From NCBI RefSeq assembly GCF_007004725.1, contig NZ_ML660169.1:1-64000 (forward strand): a DNA stretch of 64,000 nucleotides. Reading direction: 5' to 3'. The DNA is from Aliikangiella coralliicola. Lineage in GTDB: Bacteria > Pseudomonadota > Gammaproteobacteria > Enterobacterales > Kangiellaceae. The notes beneath the pieces were generated by a model. It did no database searches and was not told where the DNA came from. It saw only the letters and a list, made by a program, of their open reading frames with translations. The position numbers and the translations under genes were made by a program. Below, one piece after another: positions 8,454 to 12,226 of this stretch (positions are counted from its first letter, which is position 1; every line of letters begins with the position of its first letter).

Positions 8454-8480
8454 TAAAGTCGACTTTTTCAACGCCGATAA
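8454..8480 (+). promoter_or_regulatory. Sigma-28 (FliA) promoter of the first flagellin
   Basis: TAAAGTCG (8454-8461), 11-base spacer, GCCGATAA (8473-8480). Both boxes and the spacing match the sigma-28 consensus. Transcription would start near 8487, giving a leader of about 212 bases. Confidence 0.9.
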
Positions 8481-8486
8481 CAGGTT

Positions 8487-8698
8487 TGAACAGGATTTCT
8501 CACCCCTGTTCGCTTTAGAAAAGAAATTCTCAGTTCCTCATCTAAAGTTCATCACCAGTTCTCAGCAGGTTGATTAGTCAAGAAAGAATAATTCTCAGTT
8601 CTTCTTTCCCAAAATATTTATTTTTAATTTTTGTGCTCAAACAACAGTAGCCTCTGACCGCCTTGTTGTTTCGAAGCATTAGATTAAGGAGTCATAAA
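8487..8698 (+). promoter_or_regulatory. Flagellin leader A with four UUCUCA-loop hairpins
   Basis: Four consecutive predicted stem-loops. (1) GAACAGG 8488-8494 / CCTGTTC 8505-8511, loop with TTCTCAC. (2) CTTTAGA 8513-8519 / TCTAAAG 8541-8547 with an inner GAA/TTC pair around TTCTCAG (8527-8533). (3) ATCACC 8551-8556 / GGTTGAT 8568-8574 around TTCTCAG (8559-8565). (4) GAAAGAA 8582-8588 / TTCTTTC 8602-8608 around TTCTCAG (8592-8598). The motif recurs every 30-33 bases. About 90 unstructured AT-rich bases then lead to the ribosome site TAAGGAG at 8685-8691. Likely an RNA regulatory region; binding partner unknown. Confidence 0.7.
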
Positions 8699-10207: not shown

Positions 10208-10257
10208 TACCATGAAAGCCGAAAAAGCCCCTACCGTACGACAACTTTAGGTGCCCA

Positions 10258-10367: not shown

Positions 10368-10394
10368 TAAAGTCGCCCATTTCAGAGCCGATAC
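10368..10394 (+). promoter_or_regulatory. Sigma-28 (FliA) promoter of the second flagellin
   Basis: TAAAGTCG (10368-10375), 11-base spacer, GCCGATAC (10387-10394). The -35 box is identical to that of flagellin A. The predicted start near 10401 gives a leader of about 326 bases. Confidence 0.88.
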
Positions 10395-10400
10395 TTCTTT

Positions 10401-10726
10401 TGAACGCAACTTGTTCTCAGCAAATTGCGAACACTTCAAATTGTTGTTTCTCAGGCGATGATCGCTCGTAAAGAGCACTCTCAAATTTCATTTCCTTAAG
10501 AAACACCAGTTGAATTTGAAAGAGGTGTTTCTCAGACATTTTTTTCAACCAATGTTTTTATAAAGTTGATTTTATCAGGAACACTTGAAGGACGACTTTA
10601 ATAAAACAAAAATATGCGGATAGCAAACGGTTTCTCAGGCCATAAGCTGTCTTACTTTTTAAGCACTTTGTAATTTCAGGCGGATTTCATTTCCTCTTGA
10701 ATATCAAAGGTTTAGGAGATTTAATC
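10401..10726 (+). promoter_or_regulatory. Flagellin leader B with UUCUCAG hairpins
   Basis: TTCTCAG occurs exactly at 10414, 10448, 10529 and 10632, each time in a possible loop: CGCAA 10405-10409 / TTGCG 10425-10429; ATTGTT 10440-10445 / GGCGAT 10454-10459 (with G-U pairs); AGGTGT 10523-10528 / ACATTT 10536-10541 with exactly TTCTCAG as the loop; GATAGC 10619-10624 / GCTGTC 10646-10651. The third can be replaced by a stronger 8-bp stem GAAACACC 10500-10507 / GGTGTTTC 10524-10531, which hides part of the motif. The ribosome site AGGAG is at 10714-10718. Confidence 0.6.
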
Positions 10727-12226
10727 ATGGGTAATGTAATACAGACGAATGTATCGTCTATTGGCGCTCAGCGCTCACTGGGTCGTACTAACGACGCACT
10801 CTCAACGACTTTCCAACGTCTATCAACCGGGCTTCGAATTAACAGCGCGAAAGATGACGCCGCAGGTTTGCAGATTTCAAATAGTTTGACTTCTCAAATC
10901 AACGGGTTGGGTGTAGCGGTTAGAAACGCTAACGATGGTATTTCATTGGCACAGGTTGCTGAGGGTGCACTTCAGGAATCGACCAATATCTTACAACGTT
11001 TGCGTGACCTGTCTATCCAGAGTGCGAACGGTAGTAACAGTGGTACAGAGCGTGCCGCGTTACAACAGGAAGTTGCTCAACTTCAATCAGAACTTAACCG
11101 AATCGCTGACACCACTCGATTTGGTGGTACTAACCTGCTTGACGGTTCATTTTCAACCAAGTCTTTCCAGGTTGGAGCACAGGCGAATGAAACCATTTCG
11201 GTGACCATTAGTGGTGCTCGAGCCACAAACCTTGGTGATAACCGAATTGATGTTGGTGGTAGTGGTATTGGTGAAGTCGCGGCAGCAGCAGCGGCACCAG
11301 CAGCAAATACCGTCGCGGCGCAAGTACTAACGCTAAATGGTAGTTTAGGCTCAGCAACTGCAACCGTTGGTGTGAACAGCAGTGCAGCGACCGTTGCTGG
11401 ATTGGTCAATGCAGAAACTGGTGCAACCGGTATCTCCGCTGATGCAAGAACCAATGTTCGATTAAGTGGATTAGATACTGCTGGAACCGTTTCATTTGAT
11501 ATCGCCGGTACTGGCGGTGTGGCATCAAGTATTTCGGTGAACGTAACTTCTGTGGGTGACTTATCTGGACTTGCCGAAGCTATCAATGCAACTTCAGCTA
11601 GTACGGGTATTATCGCAACAGCTAACGGTGCAACACTTGACTTAGTGAATGAAGCTGGTGATGACATCACCATCGACGCATTTGACGTTGGTACAGCTGA
11701 TGATGGTACTGGAACAATCACGGTCACATCGCTGAACTATGACGGTACTGCAACGACTGCTTCTACTACTAACCTGGTGGATGCTGCTTCAGGTGCAACT
11801 GATGCAACTCGTATTTCAGGTCAGCTTCGTTTTTCTTCTGGTAGTGCATACACAGTTGCAACTGACACAGGTACAACTTTGTTGTCAGCAGCGAGCGTCG
11901 CTTCAGGTCTTACAGCGGTTTCTAGCGTTAACATCAGTACTGCAAGCGGTGCCCAGGCAGCGATAAGTACGATCGACGCGGCAATAACGGCGGTAGACTC
12001 TCAACGAGCCCAGCTCGGTGCGGTTCAAAACCGATTAAGCAGCACCATCTCTAACCTTGGAAGCATCATCGAAAACGTATCGGCCGCACGGTCTCGTATT
12101 CGTGATACAGACTTCGCTGCGGAAACAGCGAATCTGGCTAAAAACCAGGTATTGCAACAGGCTGGATTATCTATCCTGGCGCAAGCTAACGCTTCTAGTC
12201 AGTCAGTATTGTCATTACTTCAGTAA
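10727..12226 (+). CDS. fliC: Flagellin B
   Basis: 499 residues from the ATG at 10727, with AGGAG 8 bases before it; an earlier in-frame start at 10697 lacks a ribosome site. It is a paralog of flagellin A: the N-terminus '[18 protein letters not shown]', the '[17 protein letters not shown]' block and the C-terminus '[19 protein letters not shown]' ending '[10 protein letters not shown]' are almost the same, while the central domain (about residues 170-400) differs strongly and is very rich in Ala, Thr, Gly and Val. The pair arose by duplication with diversification of the exposed domain. It is followed by flaG after 109 bases and may be cotranscribed with it. Confidence 0.96.

Follow-up and report, generated by a model that had tools for sequence, protein, structure and literature searches.

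Two neighbouring flagellin genes, which we call flaA and flaB, carry in their mRNA leaders a series of hairpins that display one and the same seven-nucleotide loop, UUCUCAG, and a candidate small RNA (sRNA) gene elsewhere in the genome carries the exact complement of this loop, CUGAGAA, in hairpins of its own. Judging from these sequences and from their conservation, we consider it probable that flagellin is under translational repression by a trans-acting antisense sRNA, which would act through kissing loops combined with pairing at the start site.

The window, by which we mean the whole analysed stretch of 64,000 nucleotides from Aliikangiella coralliicola (contig NZ_ML660169.1), belongs to a genome of 7.04 Mb. 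Its relevant features, together with the sRNA locus outside it, are collected in Table 1; promoter elements are those that we take, by their consensus motifs, to be sigma28-like or sigma54-like. A reading of the sequence alone had described the flaA leader as an array of four stem-loops behind a sigma-28 promoter. This array is real: one TTCTCAC and three TTCTCAG motifs follow the promoter, each within an inverted repeat and spaced by 30, 32 and 33 nucleotides. Compared with dinucleotide shuffles, the flaA leader folds with a z score of −3.21 (1/200 shuffles as good) and the flaB leader with a z score of −4.75 (0/100 as good).

Table 1. Features of the flaA-flaB region (window coordinates) and of the sRNA locus (contig coordinates).
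Feature	Position	Strand	Basis or remark
sigma28-like promoter of flaA (TAAAGTCGACTTTTTCAACGCCGATA)	8454..8479	+	pattern match
flaA hairpin 1, variant loop with UUCUCAC	8488..8511	+	inverted repeat, TTCTCAC at 8497
flaA hairpin 2, UUCUCAG loop 8527-8533	8513..8547	+	model score 26.9 bits
flaA hairpin 3, UUCUCAG loop 8559-8565, weak stem	8551..8574	+	18.6 bits
flaA hairpin 4, UUCUCAG loop 8592-8598	8581..8608	+	30.5 bits
flaA, flagellin, 502 aa	8699..10207	+	flagellin models; those listed are below curated cut-offs
flaA 3'UTR site GCCCCTACCGTACGAC, partly complementary to sRNA 3' part	10227..10242	+	helix of 11 nt here; statistics weak across genomes
sigma28-like promoter of flaB	10368..10393	+	pattern match
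flaB hairpin 1, UUCUCAG loop (motif 10414)	10402..10432	+	29.5 bits
flaB hairpin 2, UUCUCAG loop (motif 10448)	10436..10466	+	21.6 bits
flaB hairpin 3, UUCUCAG loop (motif 10529)	10517..10547	+	31.8 bits
flaB hairpin 4, UUCUCAG loop (motif 10632)	10620..10650	+	23.4 bits
flaB ribosome-binding site and start codon, predicted sRNA pairing site	10713..10738	+	sequence complementarity
flaB, flagellin, 499 aa	10727..12226	+	flagellin models; those listed are below curated cut-offs
candidate sRNA gene	G000:C7 ~533901-534134 (L121 ~1396-1629)	-	start inferred from sigma54-like element; outside window
sRNA 139-nt model match	C7:533899-534037		covariance model match

Two minor features of the leaders deserve mention. 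A variant of the first flaA loop (TTCTCAC, also TTCTCAA or TTCTCAT) occupies a comparable position in several relatives, and such a UUCUCAC/A/T loop would drop the last pair with CUGAGAA. The flaB leader further contains, at about 10664-10712, a block CACTTTGTAA that could pair with CAAAG right before the ribosome-binding site and so form an extra hairpin; CACTTTG, a part of this block, is found in 22 of 36 leaders.

How widely is the loop motif kept? A flagellin match was obtained in 37 of the 61 genomes searched. In the window's own family (f1, taken as Kangiellaceae) and a second family (f14), TTCTCAG lies within 300 nt upstream of 39 of 40 flagellin starts (101 copies); in a third family, f4, it precedes one of two, and in the remaining 72 loci, many of them from Pseudomonas and Legionella, it occurs in the 300 nt upstream of 0 of 75 starts. 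This count is based on pattern-matched flagellin starts in loci L001-L109, with L002-L004 omitted as copies of the window. A sigma28-like match is present at 37 of 43 flagellin starts, and every one of the relatives' leaders with a recognisable promoter (36/36) has TTCTCAG downstream of it. TTCTCAG is the commonest heptamer of these 36 leaders, which hold 98 copies; 200 first-order Markov simulations gave 1.9 on average and 7 at most. Only motifs downstream of the promoter entered this figure, L094 being omitted as a duplicate and starts without a sigma28-like match likewise.

The flanks of 106 unique leader motifs, taken without regard to pairing and scored symmetrically around the 7-nt loop, pair at 8.11 of 12 positions, compared with a mean of 5.21 (maximum 5.68) after shuffling of the arms. 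In an alignment of 57 leader hairpins, hand-picked from plus-strand instances, covariation amounts to 0.723, versus 0.226 in shuffles and at most 0.237 in slid versions, and 246 cells are changed on both sides, versus 105 in shuffles; two-sided changes occur at 12 of 12 pairs, yet the shuffles show this too. The stems of the leader hairpins show compensatory change. Because the hairpins were collected by motif, the constancy of the loop within these sets is by choice, and it is the enrichment of the heptamer that provides the evidence for the loop. Selection on loop identity together with pairing, as proposed by the sequence-only reading, is borne out by these figures; neither a lack of the motif nor a lack of compensating stem changes in relatives, which it had named as observations that would speak against it, is seen in f1 and f14.

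Could the hairpins instead be features of the DNA or of transcription, such as operator palindromes or a repeat element, with no role in RNA? The 103 motifs found elsewhere in the same loci have a flank pairing of 6.33 against 4.55 shuffled. While 23 of them sit in sRNA-like loci (8.74 versus 6.02 shuffled), the remaining 80, outside leaders and sRNA loci, still pair slightly above arm shuffles (5.64 versus 4.54, maximum 5.08), which lends this explanation some support. However, the loop is what the hairpins share while stem sequences differ, no other cluster is found among the listed genome matches (150 candidates scored per genome), and a complementary sRNA would be left unexplained. We regard an exclusive role in DNA as hardly credible.

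The sRNA locus came to light with a covariance model of the leader hairpin (R1). A search of this type had been suggested by the sequence-only reading, and in seven other genomes it finds matches at flagellin and sRNA loci. In the whole-genome search, R1 returned the leaders and C7:534006, which is one hairpin of a two-hairpin element; a number of relatives have the same element some 350-610 nt ahead of flaA. Along the sRNA strand there come first a sigma54-like element, which in this genome reads TTGGCACACCCTTTGCTTT, then the segment CATTACCCATGATAAATTCTCC, the hairpins with CUGAGAA loops, and GTCGTACGGTAAGGGGTCG...CGACCCCTTTTCTTTT, an intrinsic terminator. The predicted transcript has a length of about 230 nt and contains CUGAGAA, the exact complement of the leader loop, two or three times. 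In its predicted fold (z −4.09) both CUGAGAA loops are open, and UACCC, the complement of GGGUA, is exposed in a small loop.

Twelve aligned sRNA copies, selected for at least two CTGAGAA, show a stem covariation of 0.455 versus 0.200 in shuffles, with two-sided changes in 14 of 23 pairs versus 5.9, a value reached by 0 of 500 shuffles; 10 further copies found by the model also contain at least two CTGAGAA each. The sigma54-like pattern TGGCAC-N5-NTGC is present in the 230 nt upstream of 22/22 accepted copies (shuffles: mean 0.015, maximum 1 of 22), 79-121 nt before the first sRNA loop. A T-tailed terminator lies on the sRNA strand in this genome, where the gene is intergenic and flanked by terminator-like sites, and the terminator hairpin is also seen in the 12-copy alignment. 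With a putative promoter and terminator of its own in a free-standing gene, the locus has the layout of a trans-encoded sRNA. Since the two RNAs possess exactly complementary hairpin loops and stems that covary on both sides, kissing-loop contacts are predicted, although loop-loop pairing by itself is short (−7.5 kcal/mol).

Which partner do the leader loops have? The sequence-only reading had allowed for an RNA-binding protein or an sRNA. Both the gene with complementary loops and the complementarity at the start site (see below) favour the sRNA. A protein that binds the loops and controls flagellin translation or mRNA life, the sRNA locus being secondary, would account for identical loops on varied stems, an arrangement that resembles arrays of protein sites. 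Yet the sRNA strand keeps CUGAGAA, and not UUCUCAG, in covarying hairpins, including the 10 copies that were not chosen for it; this counts against a protein, because one that reads UUCUCAG would not need CUGAGAA. The start-site complementarity would be left unexplained as well, and we think it unlikely that a protein is the main partner, though an additional one may take part. The likeness to CsrA sites in RsmY-type RNAs, which had also been drawn, finds no support: as its proponent had correctly noted, there is no GGA in the loops, and the partner that was found is an RNA. We rejected a CsrA/RsmA hairpin array on the same grounds, the enriched loop being UUCUCAG with variants UUCUCAC/A/T. 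Mimicry of a tRNA anticodon, considered for the resemblance of the 7-nt loop to an anticodon loop, was dropped once the complementary sRNA had been found.

A further alternative reverses the polarity of the locus. Its opposite strand bears UUCUCAG loops and a flaB-like start, and might give rise to a leader-like decoy RNA, as CsrB/RsmY do for CsrA. Against this, it is the sRNA strand that bears both the T-tailed terminator and the sigma54-like element, and a scan of the 600 nt upstream on the other strand gave no sigma28-like promoter in any of the loci (22/22). A scan for promoters of other kinds, confined to the window's own genome, gave one weak sigma70-like site on the opposite strand, and shuffles gave as many. 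In 6/22 loci, moreover, the sigma54-like sRNA promoter is divergent from the sigma28-like promoter of flaA. A decoy made from the opposite strand would thus appear very improbable.

We return to the sRNA strand and its distribution, for which a model built on the 3' part of the sRNA (R2) was used with stricter filters that lose weak matches. It matches 20 of 61 relatives; in the order, 21 of 394 genomes gave a match (one of them, G346, judged false), and in the class 1 of 369, namely the window's own. All 19 flagellin-bearing genomes of family f1 have one accepted sRNA copy, 10 of them having supplied sequences to the model, and of the f1 genomes without flagellin none does (0/18). Outside f1, the sRNA is found in 1 of the 18 flagellin-bearing genomes of the 61-genome set (G049, family f14); three f14 genomes have it in all (G049, G073 and G092). 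In G039 (family f4; assembly 89% complete), hairpins occur upstream of one flagellin and there is no sRNA match. Two rejected matches were left out of the 22-genome tests: a second R2 match in G013, which is its own flaB leader read backwards, and that in G346, which is without sigma54-like element or start-site segment.

In the window's genome the sRNA gene is located upstream of a series of genes, all on one strand of this stretch (L129). Among them are genes that we take, from their context, to encode a FleQ-like sigma54 activator, a sensor kinase and a response regulator, and others that presumably correspond, on the same basis, to fliF, fliG, fliH and fliI. None of the NCBIfam models listed for the activator, the sensor kinase and the response regulator passed its cut-off. 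Hfq is encoded. A reading frame near the sRNA locus (L129 14234-14764, minus strand) is presumably that of a REP-associated tyrosine transposase-like protein. A search against Rfam 15 (4227 families) gave 0 matches at or above the gathering threshold in the window and 0 in L129 with the sRNA gene; a looser search (E ≤10) gave four, all far under their own gathering scores.

Does the sRNA match its targets beyond the loops? Its 5' part can form a contiguous helix of 13-25 nt (G-U allowed) with flagellin start windows of the same genome in 20/22 genomes, exceeding all 200 mononucleotide shuffles, with a margin of at most 1 in G000 (the window's genome), G013, G016 and G019. G005 and G049 failed this first test; when their remaining flagellins were added, the helices came to 14 and 18 nt, more than any of the 200 shuffles gave (some flagellins of G003, G005, G049 and G092 came from additional stretches). 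Complementarity at the start site beyond chance is therefore found in 20/22 genomes and, with added flagellins, in the other two. In the window's genome the flaB start matches over ATCATGGGTAATG and, with a one-base offset, into AGGAGA. Ranked by duplex energy among 110 ATGs preceded by a Shine-Dalgarno sequence on both strands of the window, flaB comes out strongest (−38.7; next −28.2).

The start segment of the sRNA changes together with its target between lineages. By eye, ATTTATC is shared by target and sRNA in G002, G003, G006, G008, G012, G015, G018, G021 and G024, ATCTATC in G005, G016 and G019, and ACCTATC in the f14 genomes, whereas G001, G004, G009, G013 and G022 have G-U compatible mixtures. 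In G011 both partners are off the family pattern and share a 25-nt exact match. In a cross-matrix of whole-duplex energies, cognate sRNA-target pairs do not stand out.

At flaA the start is weakly complementary to the sRNA, with longest runs of 5-9 nt. Its 3'UTR shares CCCCTACCGTACGAC-like sequence with the sRNA complement, and G005, G009 and G022 deviate in both (by eye). This site exceeds all shuffles in only 5/22 genomes, G015 and G024 being represented by a flaB-type 3'UTR only. Of 2000 random 93-mers, a set that may overlap the site, some reach its duplex energy of −38.7 or go beyond it, the best having −40.8. The 11-mer TACCGTACGAC has three copies in the window's own genome; this count is no evidence, because a control pattern occurs five times.

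We propose the following mechanism. The sRNA, of about 230 nt and encoded away from its targets, would probably be transcribed from a sigma54 promoter. The UUCUCAG hairpins in both flagellin leaders would serve as docking sites at which its CUGAGAA loops make 7-nt kissing contacts. In flaB, the 5' part would then cover ribosome-binding site and AUG in a duplex of some 13-25 nt and block translation, and the weaker site in the flaA 3'UTR could pair with the 3' part. Made together with the sigma54 genes, the sRNA would restrain flagellin until the sigma28-driven mRNA outnumbers it. A duplex that covers ribosome-binding site and AUG is typical of repression, which speaks against the possibility that the sRNA pairs with flagellin mRNAs to activate or stabilise them, or that it treats flaA (leader and 3'UTR) and flaB (start) differently. 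As flaA is without a strong start-site match yet has the 3'UTR site, we grant activation or differential treatment a minor share of the likelihood, and prefer repression.

Where might such a regulator have come from? On its opposite strand, the sRNA locus resembles first the flaA 3'UTR, then the leader hairpins and then the flaB start, as they follow each other in the flagellin region itself. Because this order is kept, we think it probable that the locus began as a copy, in reverse, of the flaA-flaB intergenic region, and shared ancestry would then account for part of the similarity between sRNA and flagellin genes. The drift that has affected the sequence in between has spared the loops and the start segment, which argues for selection. 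More speculatively, the gene may be an inverted, degenerate copy of its parent region that has turned into the regulator of that region, a multivalent switch of kissing loops that determines in which order or ratio the two flagellins are made. If so, complementarity to flaA 3'UTR, leader loops and flaB start would be kept in the original order, and with two to three loops facing one to five per mRNA, one sRNA could bridge several sites or mRNAs.

Among the matches listed in our literature search, and in Rfam 15, no such RNA was found. The proposed repressor, if real, would represent an undescribed sRNA family built on repeated identical kissing loops, through which flagellar genes of the sigma54 tier would be connected, by base pairing, with flagellin mRNAs driven by sigma28. 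It would also be a case of a regulator whose origin appears to be an inverted duplication of the target itself, and whose co-change with it is traceable across two bacterial families. The predictions are direct and can be tested by compensatory mutation.

Several known systems share single traits with this arrangement. ColE1 RNAI/RNAII and similar loop-loop antisense RNAs use complementary 7-nt hairpin loops as first contact. The likeness lies in these loops on two RNAs; here, in contrast, the genes are unlinked, the mRNA has several copies of one loop, and the effect would fall on the mRNA of a structural protein rather than on plasmid replication. The arrays of CsrA/RsmA sites in RsmY, RsmZ and CsrB consist of repeated hairpins with GGA loops and have a protein partner. 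In Campylobacter, CsrA and FliW are reported to control flagellin mRNA (PMC4894983). Repeated hairpins with a conserved loop and a flagellin mRNA as target are common to these systems and ours, whereas their GGA loops and protein partner are not seen here.

E. coli FliX and MotR are described as sigma28-dependent, UTR-derived flagellar sRNAs that pair inside coding sequences, and overexpression of FliX lowers fliC mRNA (PMC10578931). As there, an sRNA within the flagellar regulon is matched to flagellin mRNA, here by sequence; unlike FliX and MotR, it would have a gene of its own behind a sigma54-like promoter, and its matches are to the leader loops and the start site. Its sigma54-like element and intergenic position also led us to reject a sigma28-dependent, UTR-derived sRNA of the FliX/MotR kind. 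Expression of the Campylobacter jejuni sRNAs CJnc230 (FlmE) and CJnc170 (FlmR) is RpoN-dependent within the flagellar hierarchy; CJnc230, a processing product of flgE mRNA, acts as a repressor of the flgM and Cj1387c mRNAs, and no flagellin mRNA is named as a direct target in the abstract of that study, in which the system differs from our candidate (PMC11187230). RpoN-type control in a flagellar hierarchy is the shared trait, seen here as a sigma54-like element only.

Are there targets other than flagellin? In the window's own genome R1 gave 19 matches at E ≤10 (150 of 1351 candidates scored): six in flagellin leaders, one opposite the sRNA strand and 12 elsewhere, 10 of these inside reading frames and two between. 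This search missed the flaB hairpin at 10620, which was scored in another. In seven other genomes there were 28 matches (150 candidates scored per genome), eight of them outside flagellin and sRNA loci: seven inside reading frames and one (L176) intergenic. Among the scored genome matches no further target was convincing, and none of those listed formed another cluster. A search for three consecutive motifs separated by 10-25 nt had no match, one gap in the flaA leader being 26. The two intergenic matches of the window's genome are single TTCTCAG hairpins (L114 1513-1519 on C7 and L128 1513-1519 on C3), which may be further targets or chance; that in L128 is placed about 150 nt ahead of a reading frame of 419 aa.
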